Of a stretch of 64,000 bases of DNA, positions 1-61,727 are shown piece after piece. Source of the DNA: Sipunculus nudus (lineage: Eukaryota; Annelida; Sipuncula; Golfingiida; Sipunculidae); the NCBI GenBank assembly GCA_026874595.1, contig CM049306.1, positions 9,817,019 through 9,881,018 of the forward strand. The letters are read 5' to 3'. The notes under the pieces were generated by a model. The model did not search any database. It had not been told where the DNA came from and saw nothing but the letters and a program-made list of their open reading frames with translations. Both the position numbers and the translations under genes were made by a program. Each line of letters begins with the position of its first letter. Positions within the stretch are counted from its first letter, which is position 1.

Positions 1-1169
1 GTAGGTCCGATGTGGGAAAGGTAGATGAGTGTGCACACAAGCCTGATTTTTAAATTTTCCATACCAAACAAATCCTGGTAACCTCTTATGTATCACGCCC
101 AAACCTGGTTTGATATTTATTACCCAACCAGCTGTAGGAATGCATATTTTTTTCGAGTAAATTTAAAATATGAAGAGGGACTATTTCTTTATAGTAAATA
201 TTTTAATATGAAATTTTATTGATGCCTGACATGTATAACATGACTTGTATTCCTACACCCACATGCATATTCTTACATAGAACTAAAGTGATCCATGTTA
301 AACATAAGAAATTAAATCTATAACCCTCTTTCACTCTTTATATAATAGCTAATTGTCAGTTTCAAAATTTATGGATGTCATTATCACTTACCAGCTACAT
401 GCATATGTTTAATTTCAAAATAATAAGAGGCTATATTTCGAAGTAGTAAACATTTTATATGGTATTTCATTGATGTCTGACACGTCACACATTGCGATTC
501 TTACACAAACAGTGATTCATATAAATCATAAGAAAAATTAAATTTGTAACCCTCTAAAATGCAACTATAATTATAAGTCCTAAGCCTGTTTGGAGGTATG
601 GAACTCATGAAAATACATGTATGATGCGGGGCCGAACAGGTGAGGCATAAAATTAATTAAATAAGTTAAGTGTTAGGCTTAGGCTAAACAACTGATAACA
701 GTATTAACATAAACAGACATGCATGAGCACAAATATGGGTTGGTAAGTAAAACTGGTAGCATCCTTGATAACTGTGAGAACTTGAATGAAACGGGGTTCA
801 TCACAAAAAGTTGTGTTTACATCTGACAATCAATGCTATGTGTACATGCGTAAAAATATACTAAAATAAGGCAGTCTGCTTAAAAGTGAAGGAGACGTTT
901 GTGAATTAACTTTTTATTCATGATATATAAATAAAAACTATATATGTACAGTTATGATAATGTTCTTAAAATATGTTTCCAAATAGATTTTATAACATTA
1001 AAGACTTGAGATAGTAAAGTGAATGGTTATAACATAATTTTTTTTAATGTTTTGTTATATCCTGTTATAATTTGTTATTTTGATATGTTATTTTTTTCAT
1101 TCTATTTAAATTATTACATTTTAGAAATGTCATATGAAAAAATTCTCATAACTCTTTTAGAATATAGTT
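1..1169. other. AT-rich non-coding DNA
   Basis: I see no convincing exon, RNA gene or repeat structure here. Short A/T runs and scattered stops occur in all frames. Confidence 0.6.
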
Positions 1170-2855
1170 GTATCCCCAGACAAAGTCGGGGGATACTATG
1201 TTTTCATACCGGTCCCACCGCTGCCACCGCCGCCGCCACATATAAATCTTGTTGGAGCAATAACCCAAAAAATATTTCACGGAAAATTACCAAACTTGGT
1301 ATATGTATAGATATGGGTAAGAGGACGACGCCTATTTAAAATGAGGTCATGACCTTGACTAGGAGAGTGTCCTTGACCTTGAATAAGTCCAATTTTGGGG
1401 AAAATCACACAAATTCTTTAATATCTCAAGAAATCTTGCATGGATTTATCCCAAAATCAAGTTGATGGAAGATCATGGATAGGGTTGTCATGTTCCAGAA
1501 ACTGGTGGCACCACCTATTATTCTTTGTTTTCGTGCCGTTTAATACCCCCAAAATTGCCACCTTACAGTACTGTGAGCATTATAAGTCAAAAACTAATGG
1601 ACAGATTTCTTTTATATTATGCATATACATAGGTATGGGTTATGGGATGATGCTTATTTAAATTGGGGTCATGACCTTTCCTATAATAGTGGCCTTGACC
1701 TTGAATATTGCCATATTTGGTGAAAATCACACACTTCTTATGATATCTCCAGTGTTGATAGCCATATGGATTTCAAACATGACTTATGTATGGCCCACCA
1801 CTAAAGTAAGAACGCTATAGGTTCTAGGGTCATGAGGTCAAAGGTCAAGGTCACTGGACTGGCATTTTAAAAGATACTGTGGATGCATTTTAAGCCAAAC
1901 TTTCATCCCAGGTCTTCCATCTTGAATATATAGCTCACTTGCCAATAGTGGATGATCCATATAAATTTTCGGGTCACAAGGTCAAAGGCTTTTATTGATG
2001 TAATGATTTCAAACTTGACTTATATATGTCCCATTGAAAAGCAAGACCCAAATTGATTTTGGGGTCATGAGGTCAAGGTCAAGGTCACAGGACACATCTT
2101 TAAAAAGATTGTGGATGCAATTTCAGCCAAACATTTCATCTCAGACCTTTCTTCTTGCACATATAAGTCATCTGCCAATAGAGGAAGACCCCTATCAATT
2201 TTGAGGTCATGAGGTCAAAGGTGAAGGTCACAGGAGCCATCTGTCCAAAAATAAGTTTCTGGATGATAATTCCTTCTTTTATTGATGTATGGATTTCAAA
2301 CTTGACTTGTATTTGACCCATTGGAAAAGCAAGACCGGAATTGAATTTGGGGTCATGAGGTCAAAGGTCAAGGTCACAGGAAACCTCTTTAAAAGATTGT
2401 GGATGCATTTTCAGCCAAACAATTCATCTCAGATCTTTCATCTTGCACATATAGTTCACCTGCCAAGAGTGGAAGACCCCTATCAATTTTGAGGTCACAA
2501 AGTCAAAGGTGAAGGTCACAGGAGCCATCTGTCCAAAAATAAGTTTCTGGATGATAATTCCTGCTTTATTGATGTATAGATTTCAAACTTGACTTGCATA
2601 TGTCCCATTGGAAAAGCAAGACCCAAATTGATTTTGGGGTCATGAGGTCAAAGGTCAAGGGCACAGGACACATCTTTAAAAAGATCAAGGTCACAGGACC
2701 AACATCTTCAACAAGATTGTGGATTGTTAGATGGAAGAAACAATAAAAATGCTAAGTGTCAGTATATGCTGCTAAAAATGGGGGTCTATTCTTGTAGGGG
2801 GGGGGGCTACTATGTCTGGGGATACTCTGGCACCGGCGGTGCCAAGAAATGTCTA
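1170..2855 (+). mobile_element. Dispersed element, family C copy 1 (hairpin head GTATCCCC...GGGGATAC)
   Basis: The left end has a small hairpin: GTATCCCCAGAC, AAA, then GTCGGGGGATAC. The right end carries GTCTGGGGATAC at 2814-2825, the inverse of the outermost 12 bases. The interior holds two kinds of tandem units. The first is about 330 bp with 'gaggtcatgacc' and 'gtggcaccacct' marks (1200-1760). The second repeats about four times from 1760 to 2700 and carries runs of AGGTCA half-sites. A (G)n tract precedes the right end, and an ending in CTAGTT lies at about 2855. No transposase frame is visible, so this is a non-autonomous element. It matches 11939-13523. Confidence 0.75.
1835..2660 (+). 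promoter_or_regulatory. AGGTCA half-site arrays (nuclear-receptor-like direct repeats)
   Basis: Perfect AGGTCA hexamers lie at 1835-1840, 1842-1847 and 1848-1853; at 2070-2075, 2076-2081 and 2082-2087; and at 2358-2363, 2365-2370 and 2371-2376. Further near-copies fall at about 2210, 2490 and 2643. One-base spacing (DR1) and zero spacing (DR0) both occur. AGGTCA direct repeats are the classic binding sites of nuclear receptors, and TCAAGGTCA fits monomeric FTZ-F1/ERR-type receptors. The hexamers are plain in the sequence, but binding in vivo is only inference. Confidence 0.45.
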
Positions 2856-3419
2856 GTTAAAATATTTCTTTCATTCAGATATGCATTATTTTGAAAGAGT
2901 TGTTCAACAAAAGAGTCAGTATAATTAAAAGTTAAAGAGACTGTTGTTATATATTAGAAGCTGGCATTTTTATACTGCCGATAGTTTAGGCACTTCCTAT
3001 AAATATAATGACCTATATATTAAATTTTTCAAAACTACATTAAAATTTAAGATAAATTTACAATTCAGTACATCTTCCGCCAAGTCACATTCAAATTTCA
3101 GTATCATCCTTTTCTTCATGAACCTAGTCTATTCACTCCAAGAAATCTTCAGGTAGGCCTACCAGATCAAAATTTTCTGCCATCTTAAGTTTCTGCTAGG
3201 TGCGGGTAGGTTTTTTTTCATTGTAAAGCAGACTACATTTCTAGGAAAAAGTACTCCCATGGTTTCCAGGTATATACATTGGTTAAAGGGGGCCCCATCA
3301 TTATTTAGTTCCTAATTTTTTATTTTAATGTACATAGATAATTCTTGGTGAACACATACTTTTATTTTATTTAGGCCTTTAACTTTTTAAGACCATTCAA
3401 TGAAAAAAAATGGTTAGAA

Positions 3420-9184: not shown

Positions 9185-10000
9185 GTATCCGCCAAAACAA
9201 AGTTTTGCGGATACTATGTTTTTGACCGGGTTCTGCCACTGCCACCACCATGTTTGTTTCAGGAATAGGACTCTAAGACCACTGGACAGATTTTTCTGAA
9301 ACTTTACACAATTATCGGGTCACATGTGAACTGGTGCCAAAATATTTCGCTTGGACCTCTGACCTTTCCTCTCTCGAGTGTGTCAATCTGTGCGTATGTT
9401 TTGACACATTAACCCATATATCTGCAGACTCGTTTGACCAATCAGGAAAGAAATTTTGCACAAATGTAGCCCTTGGATAGCTTTATAACATACATAAAAA
9501 TGGTGGCGCCACCTGCAACCATTTTTCCACAGCATTCATCTGTTCATCTGCCTTGGGATAAAATCACTCATATCTCTGCAGTGAATGGACTTATCTGCCT
9601 AAAATTTGCATGTATATTCATCTTGGATAGCTTTCTCGATTTTATGGCAGGTGGCACCACCTACTTTCACCTTCAGCTGCAGACATCCAGGTTTATATCT
9701 CAGGACTGGTTTGATGTATCCTCCTGAAATTTTGCATGTGTGTAGATCTCACAAAGATCTTTATCATACACAAAACTGATGGTGCCACCTGCAACCATTT
9801 TTGCACAGCTTACGTCTGTTGTCTGCCAAGGGATAAAATCACTCATATCTTGGCAGTGGTTTGACTTATCTCCCTAAAATTTTGCATGTATGTACATCTG
9901 GATAGCTTTATGGATTTTGTGGCACATGGCGCCACCCTCATACACATTTTGGCTGCAGACTGCAGGTAGTCGCTTGTTGACTACCTGTGTTCTAGTTATA
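9185..10000 (+). mobile_element. Dispersed element, family D (hairpin head GTATCCGCC...GCGGATAC)
   Basis: The head hairpin is 9185-9214 (GTATCCGCCAAAAC, AAA, GTTTTGCGGATAC), followed by 'tatgtttttgaccggg' as in family C. The interior has two tandem units of about 280 bp: compare 9494-9661 with 9770-9940. Both carry 'ataaaatcactcatatct', 'aaaattttgcatgtat' and a GGTGGCGCCACC-type palindrome (9502-9513 perfect). The right end is probably near 9999, at 'gtgttctagtt'. No coding frame. Confidence 0.7.
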
Positions 10001-11938: not shown

Positions 11939-13523
11939 GTATCCCCAGACAAAGCCGGGGGATACTATGTTTTCATACCGGTCCCACCGCCGCCGCCTAT
12001 AAATCTTGTTGGCGCCATAACTCAAAAAATGTTTCACCTATCTTTACCAAACTTGGTATATGTATAGATATGGGTGAGAGGACAATGCCTTTTTAAAATG
12101 AGGTCATGACCTTGACTAGGAGAGTGTCCTTGACCTTGAATAGGTCCAATCTTGGGGAAAATCACACAAATTCTTAAATATCTGAAGAAATCTTGCATGG
12201 ATTGATCCTAAAATCAAGTTGATGGAAGATCATGGATAAGGTTGTCATGTTCAAGGAACTGGTGGTGCCACCTATTATTCTTTACCTGTTTTTGTGCCAT
12301 TTAATACCCCCAAAATTGCTACTTGACAGTACTGTGAGCATTATAAGTCAAAAACTAATGGACAGATTTCTTTTATATTATGCACATACATAGATATGGG
12401 TTATGGGATGATGTTTATTTAAATTGGGGTCATGACCTTTTCTATGAGAGTGGCCTTGACCTTGAATATTGCCATATATGGTGAAAATCACACAAAATCG
12501 ATAATTAATTTCTCAATAAGGGATGCATGGATTGGTCCAAAAATCAACTTGACCGAAGATCTTGGATAGTAATGTCATGTACCAGAAACAGATGGCGCCA
12601 CCTGTTATTTTTTTACTTGTTTTTGTGCTGTTTAATACCTCAATCATTGCTACTTAACAGTACTGTGAGCATTTTAAGTCAAAAACTATCAGACAGATTT
12701 CTTTCATATTATGCATATACATAGACATGGGTTATGGGATGATGTTATTTAAAATGAGGTCATGACCTTAACTAGGAGAGTGTCCTTGAACTTAAAAAGG
12801 TCCAATTTTGGGGAAAATCACACAAATTCTTAAATATCTCAAGAAATCTTGCATGAATTGATCCCAAAATCAAGACGATGGAAGATCATGGATAGGGTTG
12901 TCATGTTCCAGCAACTGGTGGCACCACCTATTATTCTTTACTTGTTTTTGTGCCATTTAATACCCCAAAAATTGCTTCTTGACAGTATTGTGAGCATTAA
13001 AAGTCAAAAACTAATGTACAGATTTTATTTATATTATGCATGTACATAGATATGGGTCATGGGATGATGTTTATTTTAATTGGGGTCATGACCTTTCCTA
13101 TGAGAGTGGCCTTGACCTTGAATATTGCCATATATGGTGAAAATCACACAAAATCATTAATATCTCAATAAGGGATGCATTGATTGGTCCAAAAATCAAC
13201 TTGACTGAAGATCTTGGATAGTGTTGTCATGTTCCAGAAACTGACAGCTACCTGTTATTCTTTTAGTTATTTTCGTGCCGTTTAATACCCCATCATTGCC
13301 ACTTAACAGTACTGTGAGCATTATAAGTCAAAAACTAATAGACGGATTTCTTTCATATTATGCATATACATAGACATGGGTTAGGGGATGATGTATATTG
13401 AAATTGGGGTCATGACTTTTTCTATGAGAGTGACCTTTTCTATGAGTGTGGTCTGATATCAATTGTTGCTGAAGATGGGGGGCCTATTCTTAAGGGGGGG
13501 GGGGAATAATTGTCTGGGGATAC
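11939..13523 (+). mobile_element. Dispersed element, family C copy 2
   Basis: The head is GTATCCCCAGACAA at 11939-11952 and the right end is its exact inverse, TTGTCTGGGGATAC, at 13510-13523. The interior has four units of about 320-350 bp. Each carries 'ctcaataagggatgcatgga' or its variant 'ctcaagaaatcttgcatg', 'gtggcgccacct' variants, 'tacagtactgtgagcatt' and 'ggtcatgacctt', so two unit types alternate. A (G)n tract precedes the right end, as in copy 1. It lacks the AGGTCA-rich units of copy 1, so internal content differs between copies with the same ends. No transposase frame. Confidence 0.8.
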
Positions 13524-14620: not shown

Positions 14621-17600
14621 TTCCTCTGTTTCTCTTGATTCTCCAGATTGTTCCTCTTGATCCACCTGTTTGTCTTTATTGACTTGAAGGAGCACAAAAC
14701 TTTAAATATGTTTATCCCTGTTTATCCACCATTCATATTGATTCTATATATTGCCTTTGATCTGCCTGTCTTTTTCACTTCTTCCACCTGAGTGTTCCTC
14801 TTAATCAACCTGGTTGTCTTCATCACCTAATAGTTCCCCTCGATCCACCTGTTTGTCTTCATTAACCTAAATGATGATCTTGCCTGATTGTTCCTCTTAA
14901 TCCACCTGATTGTTCCGCCTGTATCACCTGTTTGTCCTCATCCATCTAAATGATCCACCTGCCTGTTCCTCTTGGTCCACCTGATTGGTCCCCTTGATCC
15001 AACTGATTGTTCCTCCTGTATCACCTGTTTGTTTTCATCCATCTAAATGATCCACCTGCCTGTTCTTCTTGGTTCACCTGATTGTTCCTCTTGATCCACC
15101 TGATTGTTCCACCTGTATCACCTGTTTGTCCTCATCCATCTAAATGATCCACCTGCCTGTTCCTCTTGGTCCACCTGATTGTTCCTCTTGATCCAACTGA
15201 TTGTTCCTCCTGTATCACCTGTTTGTTTTCATCCATCTAAATGATCCACCTGCCTGTTCCTCTTGGTCCACCTGATTGTTCCTCTTGATCCACCTGATTG
15301 TTCCTCCTGTATCACCTGTTTGTCTTCATCCATCTAAATGATCCACCTGATTGTTCCTCTTGGTCCACCTGATTGTTCCTCTTGGTCCACCTGATCCACC
15401 TGATTGTTCCTCCTGTATCATCTGTTTGTTTTCATCCATCTAAATGATCCACCTGCCTGTTCCTCTTGGTCCATCTGATTGTTCCTCTTGATCCACCTGA
15501 TTGTTCCTCCTGTATCACCTGTTTGTCTTCATCCATCTAAATGATCCACCTGATTGTTCCTCTTGGTCCACCTGATTGTTCCTCTTGGTCCACCTGATTT
15601 TTCCTCTTGATCCACCTGATTGTTCCTCCTGTATCACCTGTTTGTCTTCATCCATCTAAATGATCCACCTGATTGTTCCTCTTGGTCCACTTGATTGTTC
15701 CTCTTGATCCACCTGATTGTTCCTCCTGTATCACCTGTTTGTTTTCATCCATCTAAATGATCCACCTGATTGTTCCTCTTGGTCCACCTGATTGTTCCTC
15801 TTGATCCACCTGATTGTTCCTCCTGTATCACCTGTTTGTTTTCATCCATCTAAATGATCCACCTGATTGTTCCTCTTGGTCCACCTGATTGTTCCTCTTG
15901 GTCCACCTTATTGTTCCTCCTGTATCACCTGTTTGTTTTCAGCCATCTAAATGATCCACCTGATTGTTCCTCTTGGTCCACCTGATTGTTCCTCTTGGTC
16001 CACCTGATTGTTCCTCCTGTATCACCTGTTTGTTTTCATCCATCTAAATGATCCACCTGCCTGTTCCTCTTGGTCCATCTGATTGTTCCTCTTGATCCAT
16101 CCGATTGTTCCTCCTGTATCACCTGTTTGTTTTCATCCATCTAAATGATCCACCTGCCTGTTCTTCTTGGTCCACCTGATTGTTCCTCTTGATCCACCTG
16201 ATTGTTCCTCCTGTATCACCTGTTTGTCTTCATCCATCTAAATGATCCACCTGCCTGTTCTTCTTGGTCCACCTGATTGTTCCTCTTGATCCACCTGATT
16301 GTTCCTCTTGATCCACCTGATTGTTCCTCCTGTATCACCTGTTTGTTTTCATCCATCTAATTGATCCACCTGCCTGTTCTTCTTGGTCCACCTGATTGTT
16401 CCTTTTGGTCCACCTGATTGTTCCTCTTGATCCACCTGATTGTTCCTCCTGTATTACCTGTTTGTTTTCATCCATCTAAATGATCCACCTGCCTGTTCTT
16501 CTTGGTTCACCTGATTGTTCCTCTTGATCCACCTGATTGTTCCTCCTGTATTACCTGTTTGTCTTCATCCATCTAAATGATCCACCTGCCTGTTCTTCTT
16601 GGCCCACCTGATTGTTCCTCTTGATCCACCTGATTGTTCCTCCTGTATCACCTGTTTGTCTTCATCCATCTAAATGATCCACCTGATTGTTCCTCTTGGT
16701 CCACCTGATTGTTCCTCTTGGTCCACCTGATTGTTCCTCTTGATCCAACTGATTGTTCCTCCTGTATCACTTGTTTGTTTTCATCCATCTAAATGATCCA
16801 CTTGCCTGTTCCTCTTGGTCCATCTGATTGTTCCTCTTGATCCACCTGATTGTTCCTCCTGTATCACCTGTTTGTTTTCATCCCTCTAAATGATCCACCT
16901 GCCTGTTCTTCTTGGTTCACCTGATTGTTCCTCTTGATCCACCTGATTGTTCCTCCTGTATCACCTGTTTGTCTTCCTCCATCTAAATGATCCACCTGCC
17001 TGTTCCTCTTGGTCCACCTGATTGTTCCTCTTGGTCCACCTGATTGTTCCTCTTGATCCAACTGATTGTTCCTCCTGTATCACCTGTTTGTTTTCATCCA
17101 TCTAAATGATCCACCTTCCTGTTCCTCTTGGTCCATCTGATTGTTCCTCTTGATCCACCTGATTGTTCCTCCTGTATCACCTGTTTGTTTTCATCCCTCT
17201 AAATGATCCACCTGCCTGTTCTTCTTGGTTCACCTGATTGTTCCTCTTGATCCACCTGATTGTTCCTCCTGTATCACCTGTTTGTTTTCATCCATCTAAA
17301 TGATCCACCTGCCTGTTCTTCTTGGTTCACCTGATTGTTCCTCTTGATCCACCTGATTGTTCCTCCTGTATCACCTGTTTGTTTTCATCCATCTAAATTA
17401 TCCACCTGCCTGTTCCTTTTGGTTCACCTGATTGTTCCTCTTGATCCACCTGATTGTTCCTCCTGTATCACCTGTTTGTTTTCATCCATCTAAATGATCC
17501 ACCTGCCTGTTCCTCTTGGTTCACCTGATTGTTCCTCTTGATCCACCTGATTGTTCCTCCTGTATCACCTGTTTGTCTTCCTCCATCTAAATGATCCACC

Positions 17601-19072
17601 TGCCTGTTCCTCTTGGTCCACCTGATTGTTCCTCTTGGTCCACCTGATTGTTCCTCTTGATCCAACTGATTGTTCCTCCTGTATCACCTGTTTGTCTTCA
17701 TCCATCTAAATGATCCACCTGCCTGTTCTTCTTGGTTCACCTGAGTGTTCCTCTTGGCCCACCTGATTGTTCCTCCTGTATCACCTGTTTGTTTTCATCC
17801 CTCTAAATGATCCACCTGATTGTTCCTCTTGGTTCACCTGATTGTTCCTCTTGATCCACCTGATTGTTCCTCCTGTATCACCTGTTTGTTTTCATCCATC
17901 TAAATGATCCACCTGCCTGTTCTTCTTGGTTCACCTGATTGTTCCTCTTGATCCACCTGATTGTTCCTCCTGTATCACCTGTTTGTCTTCATCCATCTAA
18001 ATGATCCACCTGCCTGTTCCTCTTGGTCCACCTGATTGTTCCTCTTGGTCCACCTGATTGTTCCTCTTGATCCACCTGATTTTTCCTCCTGTATCACCTG
18101 TTTGTCTTCATCCATCTAAATGATCCACCTGCCTGTTCCTCTTGGTCCATCTGATTGTTCCTCTTGATCCACCTGATTGTTCCTCCTGTATCACCTGTTT
18201 GTTTTCATCCATCTAAATGATCCACCTGCCTGTTCCTCTTGGTCCACCTGATTGTTCCTTTTGGTCCATCTGATTGTTCCTCTTGAACCAACTGATTGTT
18301 CCTCCTGTATCACTTATTTGTTTTCATCCATCTAAATGATCCACCTGCCTGTTCCTTTTGATCCTCCTGATTGTTCCTCTTGATCCACCTGATTGTTCCT
18401 CCTGTATCACCTGTTTGTCTTCATCCATCTAAATGATCCACCTGCCTGTTCCTTTTGATCCTCCTGATTGTTCCTCTTGATCCACCTGATTGTTCCTCTT
18501 GATCCATCTATTTGTCGTGATCAATATGAATGATCCACCTGCCTGTTCCTCTTGGTCCACCTGATTGTTCCTCTTGATCCACCTGATTGTTCCTCTTGTA
18601 TCACTTGTTTGTTTTCATCCATCTAAATGATCCACGTGCCTGTTCCTCTTGGTCCACCTGATTGTTCCTCTTGATCCACCTGATTGTTCCTCCTGTATCA
18701 CCTGTTTGTCCCCATCCGTCTAAATGATCCACCTGCCTGTTCCTCTTGGTCCACCTGATTGTTCCTCTTGATCCACCTGATTGTTCCTCGTGTTTCACCT
18801 GTTTGTCTTTATCCATCTAAATGATCCACCTGCCTGTTCCTTTTGATCCTCTTGATTGTTCCTCTTTATCCACCTGATTGTTCCTCTTGATCCATCTATT
18901 TGTCGTGATCAATCTGAATGATCCACCTGCCTGTTCCTCTTGATTCACCTGATTGTTCTTCTTGATCCATCTGCCTGTTCCTCTTTATCCTCCTAATTGT
19001 TCCTCTTGATCCACCTGATTGTTCCTCTTGATCCACCTGTTTGTCTTCATCAATCTGAATGATCCATCCTCC
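14621..19072. repeat. 4.4-kb minisatellite with a 97-bp higher-order unit
   Basis: The base unit is 22 bp (CTGATTGTTCCTCTTGATCC+ac). Three 22-bp variants and one 31-bp variant ('ctgtttgttttcatccatct' + 'aaatgatccac') make a 97-bp higher-order unit, sometimes with one 22-mer more or less. I estimate roughly 40 copies. The - strand gives short open frames rich in DQEEQSGG and RGTIRW, all ending within 72 codons because 97 and 22 are not multiples of three. The left border (14621-14880) and right border (18480-19072) units are more diverged than the centre, as expected for arrays homogenised by unequal exchange. Confidence 0.95.
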
Positions 19073-21555: not shown

Positions 21556-21860
21556 CCTGATCCATCTGTTTGTCTTCATCAATCTAAATGATCCACCTGC
21601 CTGTTCCTCTTGATCCACCTGCCTGTTCCTCTTGATCCATCTGATTGTTCCTCTTGATCCACCTGATTGTTCTTCTTGACCCACATACCTGTACCACCTG
21701 ATCCACCTGCCTGTTCTTCTTGATCCACATGCCTGTTCCTCTTGATCAAGCTAAGTATTCCTCTTTATCCACCTGCCCTTTCTTTTTTATCTGTTCCTAT
21801 GGATTCACCATACCCCATTCCTCTTGATCCACCTGCCTATTCCTTTGATTTGCCTGCCTG
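21556..21860. repeat. Detached block of the 22-bp minisatellite
   Basis: It contains the same words as 14621-19072 ('ctgcctgttcctcttgatcc', 'catcaatctaaatgatccac'). It starts within four bases of the family A tail at 21552 and degrades towards 21860. Confidence 0.9.
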
Positions 21861-22867
21861 TTCATCCAGGGCTGTATGTGTTTACATAGATAATTTGAAT
21901 CATTTGTACTATATATGGATTATCCTTTTGATCATTTTAACATAACTTTAGCAAGCTAGATCAACTTTATTTTCCTTTCCATCATTTCTGTTCATGTATT
22001 ATTCAAAACATGCTGAGATATATGCTGTTCTTTCCTGAATCATGTGCTGAGAACATTCTTGCCACAGTGGACCATCCCCTGTGTGTCCGGATGCTTGGTG
22101 CGTTGTCAGGGGAGTCTCACTTTACCATCTAGCCCTGATAGTTAATTCATTAGTCTTCCAGTCTGGCGTATTAAGTCACAACACTGTTTGGGGAGTATCT
22201 CAGGTATCAACAGACCATTTATATAGATTGTACAGGGCTGACTTAGCTGTTAAGCCACCTAGTTATTTGTACATGCTGTCAGACTTATTTATAAATTAAA
22301 ACTTGTTGATGTGTTTGATGTTAGTCATTTTACAGGTTTTGGTGTATCAGAATTTATAAGACATGGCATAATATGAGCATATATTACTTGTAAATTTTTA
22401 GTCACACTTTCTTGAAAATCAGACTACAATAGTTCTCTTGTTCATTAAATAAATGAAATTACATAACTCAAGATAGGACACAATATAATATCTTACATGT
22501 AAATTTTGAGTCACACTTCAACATCATAATGACAAAACTTAAACAGGATTCTAAGTGGGTTTCCATTCTGAGGAAAACAGTTTTTAAGATGGGCTCAATT
22601 CATTAGATGCAGCAATATAAATTATGCAAATATATGCTTATCATTCATGGTTCTAGTGCCTTTTGGAAAAAAATTGTAAATATATTAGATATTCCTTCCT
22701 GTTGTTAATTTGGACAAAAATAATTTATTCTTTCTCCCATAAGTAACTCAGTGTTTTGCTGGTTAACATTTGGACTAATTTATGAATTGTTGAAGAATAC
22801 CATAATTGGGTGATACTAGGCAGCTGCAATATGTCACATAAAGGATTGGCACCCAGGTAAAGTTTTT
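21861..22867. other. Non-coding unique sequence
   Basis: Short open frames only. No repeats or RNA genes recognised. Confidence 0.5.
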
Positions 22868-25463
22868 AGCTCAGCTGACTAAAAGTCATCTGAGCTATAG
22901 TCGTGGTCAATTGTCCGTCGTCCGTCCGTCCGTCCGTAGATGTGGCACGTTTTGAAACCGTAAGACCTAGGAATCCAAACTTCAGCATAATGTTAGATGT
23001 CCCCAAGATCTCCTACTAAGCCGAAAACTGGGTCTTTGCGACTTCATTCCTTTGAGAAATTAAGGAAAAACCTCAATTTTTTATTAAAAACCTATTTTCA
23101 CACTTTAGGACTGTCTAATATCAAAACCACTCATCTGTTTTTCCTCATATTTCCTATAAATAATCCTCTATATAATTCCTATGTACATGCCAGAAATTAG
23201 GTCTGTATTATTTAATTTAAAAAAGTTATGGGCCCAAACATAATGCATTTTGTAAATAATCAGGAAAGAAATTTTATCACTTTACACAAAACTTGTTAAA
23301 GCTAAGCACTTTTTTTCCAGTAATATTACTTTTATTAATCAAAATTAAATTGTATACCCAAAATTAGATCAAAATCTTTTAAATTTTTAAAAATATTAGC
23401 AAAAATAAAAAATTGGTACCTTAAATTTTGCCCAACTTTTACCATGGCACGTTTTTTTGCTGTAACTGCTGTGGATTTAATTTTCACAGCATGTTTTTGT
23501 TAGCATTTCAACTGTTAACACCAAAAATTTGAAACCAGTTGATCAAAAACTGTAGATTTTATTTAAGTTTTCAAGCACCATGTCACATATTGCTAGTGTT
23601 ATGCAGTTTGCTAGAGCTCAGCTCCCGAGCTTCAGCTCTAAGTTCCTTAAATTTGGTATACTGTTAGATTTCACCAAAATCCCCTACCATGCCAAGAGTT
23701 TGGTCACTAGGACTTAATTCCTTCGAGATATCAATGAAAAACTTCATTTTTCCATTAAAAACCCAATGTTACACTTTAAGACTGCCTAATATCAAAACCA
23801 CTGATCTGACTTTGATCATATATAATATACATATTTTTCTATACATTCACTATGCACATGCCAGAAATGATGTCAGTATTGTGTATTTTTTTAAGTTATG
23901 GGCCCAAACATAATGCACTTTGTAAAAAATCAAGAAATATATTTACTCCCTTAACAAGGGCATTGCTTAAGCTAGAGATCTTTTTTGTCAGGGATGTAAC
24001 ATTATTTAATCAAGATTCAATTGAATACCCAAAATTAGTTCTGAATTTTTCAAATTTTATAAGTTATTAGTATAAATATAAAATTAGTACCTTAAATTTT
24101 GCCCAACTGTGACCATGGCACGTTTGTTTCCCGTGAGCACTGTTGATATAATTTTCATATCATGCACACATAAGGATTTCAGCTTTTTAGTTTAGAAAGC
24201 TGAAAGAAATTTGCCAAATATTGTAGCTTTTATTAATGTTTTTTATGAGACCCTGTCAGACCTTGGCTCTCTCCAGCCCCTCTTGAGTCACCTGTATGTT
24301 GACCTTGTTGACCTTTCATCAAATTATGCACGCTTGAGGGGAGAATCCAGGCAGCTTATGGCCAGCCACAGTTGATCCAGGTGTTCAACCCAACTCATCT
24401 AGTAGTTTTAACCAACAACATAACAATAAACAATAAATTAATAAATTTTTATTGGTTTTTAATAACAAATTAAAGAAAAATAGAAAAGGAATTTGTTAGT
24501 TTATAATAACAGGAAATTAACTTGCAGTTACTGATGATATAAGAATCTTGTATCGATGGGTAGAATGTCACATATTCCAAATAACACCATGCAGTCACCT
24601 ATGGCTTTTTTCAGTTCATTTTTAATGATAAAGAAGTAAATCATATTATTCATTACTAATCATTAAGGATTATATGAAGGAAATTAATGATAGACAAAGA
24701 TGCAGTTGATAATATTAATCTAGATTCCTACTGTGTCTAGTGTGTACATTGATGTGAAATTAGTCCAAAATGAATTTTTTACAGTTATTTTTTAATATAA
24801 ATAAAAGCCATAAAACCAGGTACTTATGATCATTATTTAAATGTGTGAATTTTGTATATTCTGGATTCTCAACATCATTGTTTGGTGAAAACTGAATAAA
24901 TACCAGACATGGTGCGAATACTTTGTAATTGTATTTAAATACGAATATGATTATGTACTCCATTATAAAATTTCTTGCATAAAGAATGGGAATTCAGGTA
25001 AAAATGAAAGTATATGAATACTCTTGCAAATACTTTCAAAATGTATTCATGAATGCATTCATGAATATATTCTTTAATATTATTTTAATAATCATATCAG
25101 TTATATTTCATTTTAAAAAATCATATGATTCTCTTATTATTTTTAATAAAAATTATATTTGGGACAATATTTGTAATTTTTTTAATAAATAGTTAAACTC
25201 TTATATTATATGTTCTGCTTATAAGTTATATGGCCAAGTCAAAATCTGTGTGACAGTAGTACTCCATTTGTTAATAAAATAAATGAAATCAATCCTCTTC
25301 CCTGTCTCCAAAGGTACTATCAAAATCATACATAAGCTAAACAACAACAACTCATAATACAGCTTATATTTATTACCACACAAAACCAGCATGTGCCTCA
25401 TTTCTAAATAATATTTTTTATCATATATAACAGCTGAGCGTCGTGACCCATAGGTCCCTTGTT
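22868..25463 (+). mobile_element. Family A element, near full length
   Basis: The head hairpin is AGCTCAGCTGACT, AAA, AGTCATCTGAGCT (22868-22896), then 'tagtcgtggtcaattg' and a (TCCG)n tract. Two internal units of about 700 bp follow: compare 22940-23580 with 23630-24240 ('atatcaaaaccact-atctg', 'ttatgggcccaaacataatg', 'accttaaattttgcccaact', 'gaccatggcacgttt'). The 3' part (24710-25463) ends in CAGCTGAGCGTCGTGACCCA plus 'taggtcccttgtt'. Its 24710-24970 and 25204-25463 segments recur at 52545-52790 and 57222-57477. No protein frame of note. Confidence 0.8.
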
Positions 25464-33870: not shown

Positions 33871-35743
33871 AGCTCAGCTGACTATTAGTCATCTGAACTA
33901 TAGTCGTGGTCTATTGTCCGTCGTCCGTCCGTCTGTCCGTCCGTCCGTAGATGTGGCACGTTTTCAAACCGTAAGACCTAGGAATCCAAAATTCAGCATA
34001 ATGTTAAATGTCCCCAAGATCTCCTACCAAGCCGAAAACTGGGTCTTTGCGACTTCGTTCCTTTGAGAAATTAAGGAAAAACCTCAATTTTTTAATTAAA
34101 ATCCTATTTTCACACTTCAGGACTGCCTAATATCAAAACCACTCATCTGTTTTTCCTCATATTTACCATAAATATTCCTCTATATAGTTCCTATGTATTT
34201 GCCAGAAATTAAGTCTGTAAAGTATAAATTCTTTAAGTTATGGGCCCAAACATAATGGACTTTGTACAAAATCAGGAAAAATAATAACTCACTTAACATG
34301 AAAAATTTTGAAACTAGAGTCTATTTTCTCAAGTATATAACTATTTTTAATTAAGATTCAATTGTTTACCCAAAATTATATCAAAAAAATTTATTAAGTT
34401 ATTAGCATAAAAAAAAATCAGTACCTTAAATTTTCCCCAACTTTGACCATGGCACGTTTTTTTCCTGTAAGCACCATTGATTTAATTTTCACAGCATGTA
34501 AACATAAATATTGAGTTTGTCTAAATCTGAAATTTGAAAATAAAAGCTTGAAAATTAAGCTAGTTATTGATTTTTTTTTTGTAGTCACTTGCTTTGATTA
34601 CAGATGCAGGGTCCCACTCCAGGTCACTGGAAGTCAGCTATGCCAGGGTTTCTGATTTGTTACAGTCACTGGGGGAGATCCCCTGCTGTGACAGGTGTAC
34701 AGTTATTCTCATATCACCACCCCAATCACCCCCCCCCCCCCCTGTAAACTCAACCCACCAAGTGTTATGCAATAATTGTTATTGTTTTCACTGTATCTCC
34801 TTAATTGTAATGCTGTTTCCACTCCGATATGCAAAAATTTTCCTTGAAAAAATAATTCAAGGTGTAATCCAGAAGATGCAATGTTGTGTAATGTAGCATT
34901 TTTAAAGAAATCTATTTTCTTTTAAATGATTTTAACAAATATAATTGAACCCATCGGTATGCTTAAATTATTATAAAATATGAAGCACAATATGGATAAA
35001 TAAAGACACAATTAAAAATTGTGAAATCTAAATCAAGTATTATTTTTAGATATTTATTGTTTTGCAGATTTAAAAGATATATTTTTGTGGTAAAAATAAA
35101 TAAACATTTGTATGCATGATGTGGTGTTATCTGACAAGATTGAGATTTATGATGATGCAATTGAGAATTATGAATCAACTTTTATATTCAGATATATATG
35201 TTAAATTGGAAATGTATAGAGATATTAACTTAAATTAGAAAATAATTGATGTGATAAAAAAATGAGGATTTAATACAAACATTTGTTCATTATTTTCCTG
35301 CCTCAGCAGAATTTGAGATCAGGCTTTGTTTGCCCTGTTTTATGTTGTTAATTAGCTATATTTCAACTGTATATATTTCATAAAAAAATACATATATATT
35401 TAATAATATATATTATACAAAAAAATAGATTCAATTGAAAAAATGTGTAAACTACTTAAATGTCAACAGTTAATCGAAAAACCAACTAATGATCATTGTA
35501 ATAGAACAGATCATTTGTTCACAAACTGCTCACATGCTTTAGTTTCAACATTAGGAAACACATGGTCAGGTCACAAAATATTTTTGCAACAATTTCTTGC
35601 TCATCAATACAAACCAATCATATAAACCAACCATGGCCTTTATTACCTCTTCCTCTTACACTTTATCTCCATTTGATATTATTTTAGATTTTTACCTTCA
35701 AGGTTAATGTCAGCTGAGCACAGTGACCCATAGGTCCCTTGTT
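33871..35743 (+). mobile_element. Family A element within the NCKX intron
   Basis: The head hairpin 33871-33899 (AGCTCAGCTGACT, ATT, AGTCATCTGAACT) is followed by (TCCG)n and a unit closely matching 22940-23580. The tail is CAGCTGAGCACAGTGACCCA plus 'taggtcccttgtt' (35711-35743). It has one internal unit instead of two, then a different AT-rich segment shared with 20640-20860. It lies in the same orientation as the host gene. Confidence 0.8.
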
Positions 35744-39797: not shown

Positions 39798-40802
39798 AGG
39801 GCTCCACTTCAATAGAAGCAGGTGCCCTATAGTAATCACCCTGTCCGTCTGTCTGCCAGCAGTCTGTCTGTCTGTCCCTCGGTCTGTCAGTCCACAATTC
39901 ATATCCTGATGATAACTCCAGTTTTCTAATCACATATGGATTTCAAACTTAATATTATAAATGCCCACCACTAAAGCAAAAGTCCCATTGATTTTGGGGT
40001 CAGAAGGTCAAGGTCTCAGGACTCACATTTTTAACAACTTTGTGGATGCATTTTGAGCCAAACTTTCCATGCCAATCTTTTCATCTTACACATGTAGGAC
40101 ACCAGCCAACAGGGAAACAAATCTATCAGTTTTGGGGTCACAAGTTCAAAGGTCAAGGTCACAGGAGTCATCTGTTTGTTTCCTCTTGATAACATCAGTT
40201 GGGATTCACATATGGTTTTCAAACTTGACTTTTATATGGCCCAACACTAAAACAAGCATCCTTTTATTTTGGGGTACAGTCTCCCCATCTTTAAAAGATT
40301 TTGGATGCATTTTAAGCAAAACCTTTCATACCAGAGGTTCCATCTTACACATACAGCTCACCTACCAATAGGCAAATATCTTTTTCCTTTTTGGGGTCAC
40401 AAGATCAAAGGTCAAGGTCACAGGAGCCATCTGTCCACGCACTGATTTCCAAAACCTTTCATAACTCCAGGTTTGGATTCACATATGGATTTCAAACTTA
40501 ATAGATATTTATGGCCCACCAAAAAAGCTAGAACCCTGTTGATTTTCAACCTTGAGGTCAGAGGTCAAGGTCTCAGGACTCGTATTTCTAAAAAGTTGTA
40601 AATGCCTTTTATGCCATACTTTTCTGGCCAGTCATTCCATCTTGCTTCAGTGTTTTAATACTGTTTTGGGTCAGTTTCCTCTGTCTCTGCATGTAATCAG
40701 GTCTTTTATGATATTTTCGAAGCATCACTCAGCTCACACTAGAAGTCTATAAGCCTTTAGCAGGGCCCTTCCTGACCTGTCAGTATTCATCTAGTTCTAG
40801 TT
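39798..40802 (+). mobile_element. Dispersed element, family E (hairpin head AGGGCTCCACTTC...)
   Basis: The head hairpin (39798-39828) pairs AGGGC-CC-CTTC with GAAG-GG-GCCCT around an AATA-type loop. It is followed by 'ctatagtaatcaccctgtcc' and CTGTCTGTC repeats. The internal units match the second unit type of the element at 1170-2855 ('atatggatttcaaactt', 'gtggatgcatttt-agcc', 'tcatctt-cacat-ta'). They carry AGGTCA pairs at 40150-40161 and 40409-40420. The right end is 'gcagggccctt' ... 'tctagtt' near 40796-40802. Confidence 0.7.
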
Positions 40803-49796: not shown

Positions 49797-50960
49797 TCAT
49801 GTCACTGTGGAGGAAGATTGTTAACTTCAGTCACCTGGTCATGTCACTGTGGAGGAAGATTGTTAACTTCAGTCACCTGGTCATGTCACTGTGGAGGTAG
49901 ATTGTTAACTTCAGTCACCTGGTCATGTCACTGTGGAGGAATATTGTTAACTTCAGTCACCTGGTCATGTCACTGTGGAGGTAGATTGTTAACTTCAGTC
50001 ACCTGGTCATGTCACTGTGGAGGTAGATTGTTAACTTCAGTCACCTGGTCATGTCACTGTGGAGGTAGATTGTTAACTTCAGACACCTGGTCATGTCACT
50101 GTGGAGGTAGATTGTTAACTTCAGTCACCTGGTCATGTCACTGGAGGAAGATTATTAACTTCAGCCACCTGGTCATGTCACTGTGGAGGTAGATTGTTAA
50201 CTTCAGTCACCTGGTCATGTCACTGTGGAGGTAGATTGTAAATTTCCCTCACCTGGTCATGTCACTGTGGAGGAAGATTGTTAACTTCAGTCACCTGGTC
50301 ATGTCACTGTGGAGGTAGATTGTTAACTTCAGTCACCTGGTCATGTCACTGGAGGAAGATTGTTAATTTTTTCCTCACCTGGTCATGTCACTGTGGAGGT
50401 AGATTGTTAACTTCAGTCACCTGGTCATGTCACTGTGGAGGTTGATTGTTAACTTCCCTCACCTGGTCATGTCACTGGAGGAAAATTGTTAATTTCCCTC
50501 ACCTGGTCATGTCACTGTGGAGGTAGATTGTAAATTTCCCTCACCTGGTCATGTCACTGTGGAGGAAGATTGTTAACTTCAGTCACCTGGTCATGTCACT
50601 TTGGAGGTAGATTGTTAATTTCCCTCACCTGGTCAAGTCACGGTGGAGGTAGATTGTTAACTTCAGTCACCTTGCCATGTCACTGTGGAGGTAGATTGTT
50701 AATTTCCTTACCTGGTCATGTCACTGTGGATGTAGATGTTAACTTCAGTCACCTGGTCATGTCACTGGAGGAAGATTGTTAACTTCAGTCACCTTGTCAT
50801 GTCACTGTGGAGGTAGATTGTTAACTTCAGTCACCTGATCATGTCACTTTAGAGGTAGATTGTTAACTTCAGTCACCTGGTCATGTCACTTTGGAGGTAG
50901 ATTGTTAACTTCAGTCACCTGGTCATGTCACTGTGGAGGTAGATTGTAAACTTCAGTCAC
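49797..50960. repeat. 42-bp minisatellite, about 27 copies
   Basis: The unit is GTCATGTCACTGTGGAGGTA + 'gattgttaacttcagtcacctg'. A shorter variant lacks three bases (CACTGGAGGAAG), and a variant has 'tttccctcacc'. Because 42 is a multiple of three, a 124-codon frame (49818-50192) of LTSVTWSCHCGGRL repeats is open. I regard it as a by-product. Copies at the left are the most uniform. Confidence 0.95.
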
Positions 50961-52975: not shown

Positions 52976-53035
52976 TTTTTAGCTCAGCTGACTGAAAGTC
53001 ATCTGAGCTATAGCGATCACTCTTTGTCCGTCGTC

Positions 53036-53070
<35 letters not shown>

Positions 53071-54128
53071 CTGTCCGTTAACCAGGCACAAATTGTAACC
53101 GCTAGATCTGGAATCTTCTTACTTGACATCCTGGGAGGTCCATGAAAAATCTCCATGGAAACCAAAATTAGGTCTCTGTTACCCATATTCTTCGAGCTAT
53201 GGAGCCCTAAAGTACCCCCAAGAAAAGTAAAAAATTTCATACAAAAACTTCAATATCTCATTAACAACTTGAATGATGGTCATGATTTGTGGCATAACTA
53301 TTGATCATGACATGTGTCATCTGTTCCTGCAGACTGGTGGCGCCACCTGTATCGTTCGATTTTTTACGATTTTTTCCTCTATTTTTGAGACCTTTAAGGA
53401 TGCTGTCATCTGTTAGCATGGCACAAATAGTAACGACTGGACCTAGAATCTTCATTCTCAACACACTAGAAGACCTATGAAAAGTCTCCATGGAAACCAG
53501 AAATTAGGTCTCTGTTACCCATATCCTTCGAGCTATGGGGCCCCAAAGTACCCCCCCAGAGTAGTCAAAAATTTCATACAAAAACTTCAATATCTCAATA
53601 ACTACATCACTGATGGTCATGATTTTTGGCATACATATTGATTATGAGATGTTCCATCAGTTCCTGCAGACTGGTGGAGCCACCTATGTTATCTATCAAG
53701 AGGGTACAAATTGCAACAACTGGACCTAGAAACTTCATTCTTGTCATGCAAGGAGGCCCATGAAGAGTGCCTGTGAAAAATTGAAATTAGGTCTCTGTTA
53801 CCCATATCCTTCAAGCTATAGGACTCTGAAGTATCCCTCAGAATAATGGACAATTTGATACAAAAGCTGAAGTATCTGAACAACTAATACGGAGATCAAT
53901 ATGATTCTTTGCATGGATATTGACCATTAAGTGTTTTTAGCTCAGCTGACTGTAAGTCATCTAAAGTATCCCTCAGAATAATGGACAATTTGATACAAAA
54001 GCTCAAGTATCTAAACAACTTTTGCAGTGATCACCATGATTCTTTGCATGGATATTGATCATGGAATGTGTCATCAGTTTCTGCAGTATGGTGGCGCCAC
54101 CTGTATTTTTTTTATTTTTACGAATTTT

Positions 54129-55852
54129 TATGCCCCCGCCACAAAGTGGCTGGGGCATATAGTTTTACCCATGTCCGTCATTCCGTCCTTCCGTCCTTCC
54201 GAAATCAAACAGTTGTACGGACTTTTTTTCGCAATGCCTGCAGATATTGGCCTGATTTTTGGTGTATGGGCAGATATAGACCAGTTACAGATCGAGTTCG
54301 CGTTTCGTCCCGGTTGACCTACTTTTGACCGTTTTACGGCTCCTGAACATAGAAAATTTCATGAAAAATATGAAATTTCATGACAAATACACATGTACGG
54401 ACTTTTTTTCGCAGTGCCTGCAGATATTGGCCTGATTTTTGGTGTGTGGACAGATATAGACCAGTTACAGATCGAGTTCGCGTTTCGTTCCGGTTGACCT
54501 ACTTTTGACCGTTTTACGGCTCCTAAACTAAGAAATTTTCATGAAAAATAGAAATATTCATGACAGATACACATGTACGGACTTTTTTTCGCAATGCCTG
54601 CAGATATTGGCCTGATTTTTGGTGTGTGGGCAGATATAGACCAGTTACAGATCGAGTTCACGTTTCATCCCGGTTGACCTACTTTTGACCGTTTTACGGC
54701 TCCTAAACTTAGAAAATTTCATGAAAAATAGAAAATATTCATGACAGATACACATGTACAGACTTTATTTCGCAATGCCTGCAGATATTGGCCTAATTTT
54801 TGGTGTGTGGATAGATATAGACCAGTTACAGATCGAGTTCGCGTTTTGTCCCGGTTGACCCACTTTTGACCGTTTTACGGCTCCTGAACTAAGACAATTT
54901 CATGAAAAATATGAAATTTCATGACAAATACACATGTACGGACTTTTTTTCGCAGTGCCTGCAGATATTGGCCTGATTTTTGGTGTGTCGGCAGATATTG
55001 ACCAGTTACAGATGGAGTTCGCATTTCATCCTCGTTGACCCACTTTTGACTGTTTTACGGCTCCTAAACATCGAAAATTTCATGTAAAGTATATATTTTC
55101 ATGACAAATACACTTGTACAGACTTTTCTTCACAATACCTGCAGATATTGGCCTGATTTTTGGTGTGTGGGCAGATAATGACCAGTTACAGATCGAGTTC
55201 ACGTTTTGTCCCAGTTGACCTATTTTTGACCGTTTGACGGTGCTCTAACATAGAAAATTTCATAAAAAGGTGCACATGTATGGACTTTTTTTCGCAGTGC
55301 CTGCAGATACAGGCCTGATTTTTTTTGTGTAGGCAGATAATGACCAGTTACAGATCGAGTTCTTGTTTTGTCTCAGTTGACCTACTTTTCACCATTTGAC
55401 TGCTCCTGAACATAGAAAGTTTCATGAAACATATAAATTTTCATAACAAATGCATATGTACTGACTTTTTTTCCTCAATGCCTGCAGATACCACCCTGAT
55501 TTTTTTTGTGTGGGCAGATAATGACAGTTACAGATCGAGTTTGCGTTTCATCCCGGTTGACCTACTTTTGATTGTTTTACGGCTCCTAAACATAGAAAAT
55601 TTCATGAAAGACAGAAATTTTTATGGAAAATGCACATGTATGGACTTTTTTTCGAAATGCCTGCATATACTGGCATGATTTTTGGTGTGTTGCTTGATAA
55701 TGACCCGTTACAGATCGAGTTTGCATTTTGCCCTTGTTGACCTACTTTTGACCATACGACACCTCCTGAACTTAATAAATTTTCAAAATTTTACAAATGT
55801 TTCTAATTTGCCCAAGGCGGGGGCATTCGTGTTGTTCCAACACATCTAGTTT
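54129..55852 (+). mobile_element. Family B element (TATGCCCCCGCCAC hairpin) inserted into family A
   Basis: The head hairpin is TATGCCCCCGCCAC, AAA, GTGGCTGGGGCATA (54129-54159). A 'tatagttttacccatgtccg' and TCCTTCCG tract follows. The right end has GGCGGGGGCAT (55816-55826), then 'tcgtgttgttccaacacatc' and 'tagt'. Inside are about nine tandem units of about 181 bp starting near 54214, 54395, 54576 and so on. Each begins with 'gtacggactttttttcgca' and 'tgcctgcagatattggcctg' and includes 'gaccagttacagatcgagtt'. The surrounding sequence is a family A unit. The same place uninterrupted reads 'ttttttacgattttttcctc' at about 53362-53383. Confidence 0.85.
54214..55720 (+). repeat. 181-bp internal satellite of family B, about nine units
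   Basis: Units lie head to tail. The first three or four are nearly identical, and later ones (from about 55100) drift and vary in length. Overlapping open frames of 86-96 codons at 54027-54328 are repeat by-products. Confidence 0.9.
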
Positions 55853-57210
55853 TCTCTATTTTTGAGACCTCATAAGATGCGGTCATCTGTTAACATGGCA
55901 CAAATCGTAACAACTGGACCTAGAATCTTCTCTCTTGACATGCTGAGAGGCCCATGAAAAGTTTCCTTAAAAACTTGAAATTAGGTCTCTGTTACCCATA
56001 ACCTCTGAGCTATGGGGCTCCGAGGTACCCCCCAGAATAATGGAAAATTTGATACAAAAGCTCAAGTATCTGAACAATTATTATATTGATCACCATGATT
56101 CTTTGCATGGATATTGATCATGAAATGTTTCATCAGTTTCTGCATTCTGGTGGCGCCACCTGTATTTTTTCAATTTTTAGCTCAGCTGACTGAAAGTCAT
56201 CTGAGCTGTAGGGATCACCTTTTGTCCGTCGTCCGTCCGGCCATCCAGGCGTCTGTCTGTTAACAGGGCACAAATCGTAACCGCTAGACCGGGAATCTTC
56301 TTACTTGAAATCCTGGGAGGTCTATGGAAATTCTCCTTGTAAACCTGAAATTAGGTCACTGTGACCTATATTCTTCGAGCCATGGGGTTCTGAAGTACCC
56401 CCCCCAGAATAATGCAAAATTTAATACAAAAGCTCAAGTATCTGAACAACTAATGCATTAATCACCATGATTCTTTGCATGGATATTGATCATGGAGTGT
56501 TTCATCAATTTCTGGAGATTGGTGGCGCCACCTATATTTTTTTTATTTTTTACGATTTTTTTTCTCTACTTTTGTGATCTTTAAACATTTGGTCATCTGT
56601 AAACAGGGCACAAATCATAATGACTGGACCTAGAATCTTCTGTCCTCACCTCCAGGGAAGCCCATAAAAGGTCTACATGGAAACCCGAAATAAGGTCCCT
56701 GTTACCCATATCCTTCATGCTCTGGGGCTCCGAAGTACTCCCCAGAATAAAGATTTGGTCATCTGTTAACAGAGCACAAATTATAATGACTTGACCTAGA
56801 ATCTCCTTTCTTGATATGCTGGGAGGCCCTTGAAAAGTCTCCTTGTGCACCTGAAATTACATCTCTGTTACCCATATCCTTCATCCTATGCGGCTTTGAA
56901 ATACCCCCCAGAATAAACATTTGGATTTGTTAACAGGGCACAAATCATAATAACTGGACCTAGAATTTTATTTTTTGACATGCTGGGAGACCCCTGAAAA
57001 GTCATCTTGTAAACCTTGAAAATAGGTGTCTGTTACCCATATCCTTCATGCTACTGAGCTCCATAGTACCCCAATGAATATTGGATGATTTTATACAAAA
57101 GGTCAAGTTTGGAAAAAGTATTTCATTCACATTTGACATTTAGATGATAAAATTACTTTTGTCAATGTCTTCCTGGTCAGCTGAGCATCATGACCCCTGG
57201 GTCACTTGTT

Positions 57211-60925: not shown

Positions 60926-61727
60926 AGCTCAGCTGAAAATAGGTTATCTGAACTATAATGATCATCCTTTGTTGGTCAGCTGTCAATATGTCTGTTAACA
61001 GGGCACAAATTGTAACTGTTTGACCTAGAAATTTCACACCTAACATCTAGGTAGATTTCTTGGTAAATATTCTTGCTCACCAAAAATTAGGTCAGTGCAA
61101 CCTTTATTGTCCAAGTAAGGCATATTTTTGTGGTTTTTAGCAATTAGTTTTAGCAATCTTGGTTTGTAATACAAAAATTCTGCATTCAGCCCAAACTGTA
61201 TAACATTGTGTCATCTGCACATATAACCTGTGTTATTATATAAAGTATGAAGAAAATTAGCTCAGCCAGTGCTTTAGAACTGTTGCAGACACACTTGCAA
61301 AATTTTAACATTTTGGGCTGTTGATGCATGAAGTTCATACTTTAAAATATCCCAGTAATGATTGCTTTTGTGAAATTCTGTTAGCTTATTTATCATTCGT
61401 AATCCTTTCAGTTTTGTAATACTAGTGGCTCCACCTACATTTCCTTTATTTTTTTACATTTTTATGATATTTTCAGGATTAGTACTCAGGGGTTGACATG
61501 TCACAATAGGAGTCCAGCAACACATATTATACATTGTATGCACTAATGCATCAGTTACACATATGTATCAGTCACCATGGAAAATTTGAGGAAAATCCAT
61601 CTGTTACTTTCTTCCCAACTGCCAAACATACAATTGCAAAAATACTAAAATGACAGCAGTCTTAGTTGATAGAATTTCTCTGTGTCAGAGGTCAGCTGGG
61701 GGTCATGACCCCTAGGTCATTTGTTAG
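60926..61727 (+). mobile_element. Short family A element between two NCKX exons
   Basis: The head is AGCTCAGCTGA...TTATCTGAACT (60926-60953), then 'ataatgatcatcctttgt', 'aacagggcacaaattgtaac' and a unit with 'agtggctccacct'. The tail is CAGCTGGGGGTCATGACCCC plus 'taggtcatttgtt' (61693-61727). It is more diverged than the other copies and only 0.8 kb long. It fills most of the 1.08-kb intron. Confidence 0.75.

Follow-up and report, generated by a model that had tools for sequence, protein, structure and literature searches.

We find that five dispersed repeat families (A to E) in the genome of the sipunculan worm Sipunculus nudus are almost certainly HINEs, that is, non-autonomous Helentron (Helitron2) rolling-circle transposons, and that family A is tied to a coding Helentron. 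The kind is already known, and families A to E are new members of it. The window in which the families were described is a stretch of 64,000 nucleotides (G000:C1:9817019-9881018), part of a 1.43-Gb assembly of 153 contigs.

Head hairpins and layout of the elements

The first-pass annotation had described ten elements in five families, each starting with a terminal hairpin ("head"), and all ten heads are present at the positions it gave. Folding one head each of families A, B, C, and D returns the claimed hairpin, with folding z-scores of -3.6 to -7.6. The E head hairpin is weak (z = -1.5, for a slice that ended three bases short). In a scan for stems with at least 11 pairs, at most two mismatches, at least four G/C, and a loop of 3-7 bases, the window gives 25 rows, whereas 20 dinucleotide-shuffled versions average 1.85. 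Eight of the 10 heads account for nine of these rows; the remaining rows are unrelated inverted repeats, some of them overlapping. Two heads, those at 39798 (E) and 60926 (A), are so imperfect that they fall short of these thresholds.

On the plus strand, the order of parts is a T-run, the 5′ subTIR, a short loop, the complement of the subTIR, TATAG or TATG, a microsatellite, a body that may hold tandem units, the 3′ subTIR, a short palindrome, CTAG or CTTG, and T. A T directly precedes 21 of 22 distinct A heads, 11 of 13 distinct B heads, and all three distinct C heads, and for D and E this was read in the window copy. The microsatellite past the hairpin is GTCC/GTCT or TTCCG in A, B, and E, where the TCCGTC-like tract described for most families is found (as TCCGTC/GTCC), and CCG/CCACC in C and D, which lack that tract. 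Tandem units, also attributed to most families, are found by TRF in A (the copy at 52981), B, and C; in D, E, and the A copies at 22868, 33871, and 60926, TRF reports a GTCC microsatellite at most.

The short inverse of the outer stem arm that had been noted at the right end of A, B, and C is borne out: the 3′ subTIR is complementary to the 5′ subTIR exactly or nearly so in these three families, eroded in D, and weak in E. Tails lie at 25431 and 35711 (A1 body), 57178 and 61693 (A2 body), 55816 (B), 2814 (C), approximately 9966 (D), and approximately 40770 (E). A feature that the annotation had not listed is a 3′ palindrome followed by CTAG or CTTG and T, present in all five families: clear in A, B, the first C copy, and D, and weak in E. 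One A copy (the 60926 element) has TTTG in place of CTAG/CTTG, and in the second C copy neither palindrome nor end is seen after the subTIR at 13508. The palindrome plus CTAG/CTTG rule alone is not rare (16 sites in the window, where 20 shuffled versions average 7.8), so the case rests on copies rather than on the motif. The elements of the window are as follows; the ends of C, D, and E are read from these window copies.

1170..2856, plus strand: family C; head hairpin, CCG-rich tract, 288-bp tandem units; 3′ subTIR GTCTGGGGATAC at 2814, palindrome GGCACCGGCGGTGCC, end CTAG followed by TT.
9185..9995, plus strand: family D; head hairpin with one bulged base, eroded 3′ subTIR, palindrome GGTAGTC/GACTACC, end CTAG followed by TT.
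11939..13523, plus strand: family C, second copy; 326-bp tandem units; the end given is that of the 3′ subTIR.
22868..25461, plus strand: family A (A1 body); tail CAGCTGAGCGTCGTGACCCATAGGTCCCTTG followed by TT.
33871..35741, plus strand: family A (A1 body); tail GTCAGCTGAGC and palindrome, CTTG followed by TTT.
39798..40794, plus strand: family E, a weaker case; imperfect head hairpin, GTCC/GTCT tract, short palindrome CTGAC/GTCAG, end CTAG followed by TT.
52981..57208, plus strand: family A (A2 body), interrupted by B; head hairpin 52981-53009, GTCC/GTCT microsatellite, satellite units, 3′ subTIR at approximately 57176, palindrome TGACCC/GGGTCA, end CTTG followed by TTTT.
53939..53971, plus strand: partial inner A head, also in loci L002, L003, L005, and L008.
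54130..55849, plus strand: family B, nested in a T-run of A; head hairpin 54130-54158, TCCGTC/TTCCG tract, 180-bp tandem units at 54214-55753 (TRF), 3′ subTIR GGCGGGGGCAT at 55816-55826, palindrome GTGTTG/CAACAC, end CTAG followed by TTTT.
56179..56207, plus strand: second full A head, also in L002 and L003, with a close form in three Helentron leaders.
60926..61723, plus strand: family A, short and diverged; tail GTCAGCTGGGGGTCATGACCCCTAGGTCATTTG followed by TT.

The five families had been presented as different in sequence, and two alignments qualify this. The D and C heads are 72% identical over 65 bp (E = 0.004), and E matches A at 79% over 70 bp just past the stem, most of it microsatellite. 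Family A itself comprises two bodies, A1 (22868 and 33871) and A2 (52981, 56179, and 60926). In family E the stem is poor and the tail echo weak.

Three further repeats of the window are recorded here. A long tandem array (TGATCCACCTGATTGTTCCTCT) with 22-, 97-, and 313-base periods occupies 14883-19044 and 21589-21863, with an A-type tail (21520) shortly ahead of the second block. Regular minisatellites at 4726-5660 and 49797-50960 have 33- and 42-base periods, both multiples of three. A-type tails with no assigned head are found in the window at 21520, 57427, and 57861 and elsewhere in L079 on C10 (reverse strand, 1140).

Terminal position of the hairpins and an empty site for family B

The interval 52981-55852, which had been treated as one element, is a composite of the 5′ part of an A element extending to approximately 57208 and a nested B element at 54130-55849. 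Two paralogues of the window A element, L002 and L003, lack B and read ACGAATTTTTTTCTCTATTTTTGAG at the site where the window has ACGAATTTTT on one side of B and TTTTCTCTATTTTTGAG on the other. Seven Ts are present in L002/L003, and five and four Ts flank B in the window. These empty sites show no target duplication beyond Ts. Because the T-runs hide the exact junction, a target duplication of zero and a 2-base TT duplication are indistinguishable.

For family A, we retrieved eight loci by their head (L001 being the window copy). In seven of them the head comes right after five or more Ts, the 5′ boundary being TTTTT followed by AGCTC or a variant, with unrelated flanks; the eighth, L003, is truncated there. 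For family B, 40 tails were scored among 1717 first-look candidates and 30 were retrieved (L043 being the window copy); all 30 of these have the 3′ boundary CTAG followed by TTT. The B tail query included 11 bases of A-satellite flank, which favors B copies nested in A, and by eye about 10 of the 30 retrieved tails have flanks other than A satellite. The boundary between T-run and head in the A loci, the B tails, and the B empty site together place the hairpin at the terminus in both families, and not at an internal or random position relative to the true ends. Covariation in the B palindrome (TTG/CAA versus TCG/CGA) was dropped as evidence, since both arms contain CpG and deamination can mimic such a pattern.

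These ends bear on an alternative in which a DDE transposase mobilizes A to E, which would then be MITEs or foldback elements whose head is the remnant of an inverted repeat. There is a precedent in that Pearl, a bivalve relative, was first named a MITE (PMC7492417, cited from a partial text). Against it, the terminal repeats are asymmetric, the 5′ copy being terminal and the 3′ copy lying inside the palindrome-CTAG/CTTG end; the B empty site has no target duplication beyond Ts; and the A partner described below encodes Rep and a PIF1 helicase. We therefore give this explanation next to no credence.

A coding Helentron that shares the ends of family A

A profile search yields at least 143 Helitron_like_N matches in the genome and none in a control set of 14 genomes. 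The long autonomous relative that the annotation had proposed to look for, with head, tail, and Rep/helicase, is found for family A, in copies on contigs C17, C5, and C10; none was found for B to E. The C17 copy has the exact A tail 1 kb past the end of the endonuclease part of its frame, and an exact A-type tail is also present on the C5 and C10 copies. C17 and C5 are 98.9% identical over 1047 bp and C17 and C10 98.6% over 1118 bp, and in both comparisons identity stops three Ts past the A tail. At the opposite end, an outer A head follows TTTTT on each contig (C17, 35640361; C5, 42923483; C10, 71611300). The spans of the copies are thus 14,883 bp (C17), 16,126 bp (C5), and 15,727 bp (C10), resting on both ends, with two gaps in the C17 sequence and the C5 and C10 copies taken without their middle sequence. 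The flanks of the three copies do not match each other and have T-runs on both sides.

The C17 copy, in which alone the protein domains of the A partner were read, has a single open frame of 2342 codons (7026 bases) without a stop, its ends being seen in L074 and L073. From the start, the frame contains a tegument-like protease domain (VTD; Herpes_teg_N, E = 1.2e-13), for which there is a solved relative (8add, E = 1e-11), a Helitron_like_N (Rep) domain, a PIF1 helicase (E = 1.5e-23), and, at the end, a partial match to an AP-type endonuclease (Exo_endo_phos_2, E = 1.3e-5) that lies under the Pfam cut-off. The first of these is placed as follows.

L074 (C17:35632500-35637000), 3-1028, minus strand: tegument-like (VTD) domain, Herpes_teg_N match.

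The leader between the outer head and the frame is related to the window A element. With B removed, that element is 81% identical to the C17 leader over 715 bp from the outer head and 92.7% identical over 1178 bp that comprise satellite and inner head. The C5 and C10 leaders share 96.8% and 94.6% identity with that of C17 (longest aligned pieces), and all three leaders carry a second A head, in a close form, along with A satellites.

An alternative is that the A head and tail at these three sites come from HINEs that landed next to or within the Helentrons, and are not Helentron ends. In its favor, a D element and a further A head lie in the leader together with A satellites, and 45 bp past the Helentron's own tail C10 carries another A-type tail, which has no assigned head. 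Yet outer head and tail flank the Rep match in three copies at different sites, identity among the copies ends at the tail, and no other A tail is present in the leader sequence (complete for C17, partial for C5 and C10). Moreover, related Helentrons on C3 and C1, 79% identical to each other, stop five bases past TTCAGCTGAGCGTCATGGCCCATGGGCCACTAG, a variant of the A tail. We regard insertion as very unlikely, if marginally less so than the MITE explanation, and the Helentrons on C17, C5, and C10 as the likely autonomous partner of family A.

The C17 leader also contains a D-type element (L074, reverse strand, approximately 1666-2530) that has a head of its own and ends in CTAG, and the C5 and C10 leaders have a D head at the corresponding site (L082 and L083). 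Since the D head occupies an equivalent site in the other two copies, the D insertion probably predates the spread of the C17, C5, and C10 copies.

Multiple heads and a single tail

Three heads, the outer one, a partial one, and a second full one, accompany a single tail in the window A element. The partial inner head recurs in L002, L003, L005, and L008 and is thus part of family A. L002 has the same order of heads as the window element, its tail lying beyond the locus. The multi-headed A form has itself multiplied, and it sits in the Helentron leader. Helitrons are known to occur in tandem, the inner copies truncated at their 3′ ends (PMC7492417, partial text).

Other Helentrons in the genome

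For families B to E, we scanned 18 Helentron stretches (L039-L042 and L073-L086) and found, at up to two mismatches, no B-E head and no tail of B, C, or D that could be assigned to a Helentron; the matches consist of the nested D element and, in L076, a few two-mismatch matches to the C arm that lack the remainder of an end. Two Helentrons with long open frames, P on C11 (L039/L040; 2235 codons) and Q on C13 (L041/L042; 2426 codons), were considered as partners. Both lack the A head and tail, and with up to two mismatches allowed they show neither a head of B to E nor a tail of B, C, or D; both were rejected. Their own ends were not found in L039-L042. P and Q are 87% identical over the coding part, have short repeats at the N-terminus, and represent a second Helentron lineage. 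The domains of P, the one scanned, are DUF6570, OTU, Rep, PIF1, and Exo_endo_phos; P thus has an OTU protease match in place of the tegument-like protease (VTD) with which the A Helentron frame begins.

A second Helentron on C13 (L075/L076) is 87%-89% identical to the A partner over two coding pieces, and no end of it was found in these two stretches. An exact-motif scan of thirty Rep loci with 1.5-kb flanks (L009-L038) gave one match, in L036. Taken at first for a B tail, this match comes from the arm of an oppositely oriented B head, and it was rejected as a sign of a partner: a HINE near a Rep match, with the B head on the reverse strand at 3131, approximately 1 kb from the Rep match and on the opposite strand to it.

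A mismatch in the head stem

Among heads collected at up to three mismatches, with the mismatch position left free and several loci yielding two heads, one stem position is almost never paired. In A, position 8 is paired in none of 22 distinct heads (other positions, 18-22 of 22); in B, position 8 is paired in one of 13 (other positions, 12-13); and in C, position 9 is paired in none of three (other positions, 2-3). As copies share ancestry, this amounts to three families and not 38 independent cases. The tail carries the base that matches the mismatch position in all 30 B tails, in 38 of the 45 A tails, and in both C tails. Accordingly, the outer arm is calculated to pair less strongly with its own partner than with the tail: -10.7 versus -15.1 kcal/mol in A, -12.0 versus -17.0 kcal/mol in B, and -11.2 versus -14.1 kcal/mol in C. 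The D head has a bulged base at position 9, and the D tail does not restore full pairing, which counts against a general mismatch rule.

The head-stem mismatch of A, B, and C, absent from the pairing with the tail, may be a new detail; a narrow search of partial texts brought up no mention of it. A speculative reading, which we consider improbable but worth stating, is that the head hairpin is designed to yield: its mismatch would serve as a tuned switch by which the tail displaces the hairpin and fixes the point at which copying stops. If this were true, failure of the switch would yield A elements with several heads and one tail.

Relation to known elements

The published systems compared here are cited from partial texts. 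In Helitron2, the 5′ hairpin is formed by the 5′ ATIR, and the 3′ ATIR lies just upstream of the 3′ hairpin; Bao and Jurka proposed that pairing of the 3′ ATIR destroys the 5′ hairpin as copying ends (PMC3627910). Thomas et al. (2014) described Helentrons, HINEs, and their TT target (PMC4067079). The layout given for HINEs is a 5′ subTIR, an IR, a microsatellite, central repeats, a 3′ subTIR, and a palindrome (PMC7492417), central tandem repeats being frequent and not obligatory.

A close likeness, judged from published descriptions and not from sequence, is to the Cg_HINEs that Vojvoda Zeljko et al. (2020; PMC7492417) described in Crassostrea gigas. These have a 5′ subTIR of 11-12 bp with an IR 1-12 bp away, a GTCY/GTCC microsatellite in several cases, central satellite-like repeats, a 3′ subTIR, a 3′ palindrome, and a T-rich target with no TSD. 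That study reports that no autonomous element could be related to Cg_HINEs, in contrast to family A, which is linked to one. No HINE partner is named in the part consulted of a survey of five oysters (PMC11136912), and we found no coding Helentron linked to a satellite-bearing mollusc HINE in the open-licence literature, seen mostly as titles and the starts of abstracts.

Helentrons and HINEs of mite, Culex, and Drosophila, including DINE-1 (PMC4067079), resemble the present elements in their subTIRs, IR, 3′ stem loop, TT target, and microsatellite or central repeats, and in having a Rep/helicase/endonuclease partner that shares the ends. The A partner differs from the Helentrons of Thomas et al., as described in the text available, in carrying several heads and satellite in a long 5′ leader and in a frame that starts with the tegument-like (VTD) domain. 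Helitron2 (Bao and Jurka 2013; PMC3627910) is similar in its 5′ hairpin, its 3′ ATIR by the 3′ hairpin, and a T at the 5′ end; it was reported without an endonuclease (PMC4067079), whereas the A partner has the partial endonuclease match. Helentrons that carry VTD (PMC9741609) likewise have a herpes tegument-like DUB domain in the frame, with molluscs among their hosts, although that account, in the part consulted, concerns the protein domain and not HINEs or element ends.

The suggestion of Helitron-like hairpins, distinct from the ordinary TIR layout, agrees with this published Helitron2/HINE layout, and that of non-autonomous elements with related machinery agrees with a Rep/PIF1 Helentron that shares the A ends. 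The further proposal that A to E form a new, unclassified superfamily of non-autonomous elements does not hold up, as the layout is already published for Helitron2 (PMC3627910) and HINEs (PMC7492417). Its appeal is that the family sequences differ and that the ends lack the canonical TC...CTRR pair of Helitron1. The elements do depart from canonical Helitron1 in having a 5′ hairpin and ATIRs, and while CTAG ends fit the CTRR rule, the CTTG of family A does not. But the listed features all appear in the available descriptions of Helitron2, Helentrons, and HINEs, and for A the existence of a Rep/PIF1 element with A ends contradicts it. We find a new superfamily about as improbable as MITEs.

If A to E are HINEs, the Rep/helicase of such a Helentron would nick at the 5′ hairpin, and one strand would be peeled off during copying. 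Copying would halt at the 3′ palindrome, where the 3′ subTIR could displace the 5′ hairpin, and the copy would be joined between Ts. Slippage or repeated copying would expand the internal satellites, which would be carried along with the ends, and families B to E would presumably use related Helentrons of their own with matching ends.

Both ends of family A, and its satellite too, link it to a Helentron that codes for protein in one long open frame. A direct test is now possible of whether one protein mobilizes satellite-bearing HINEs and of how satellites enter them. The conserved mismatch in the head stem also yields a specific prediction about the way in which these transposons select their end.
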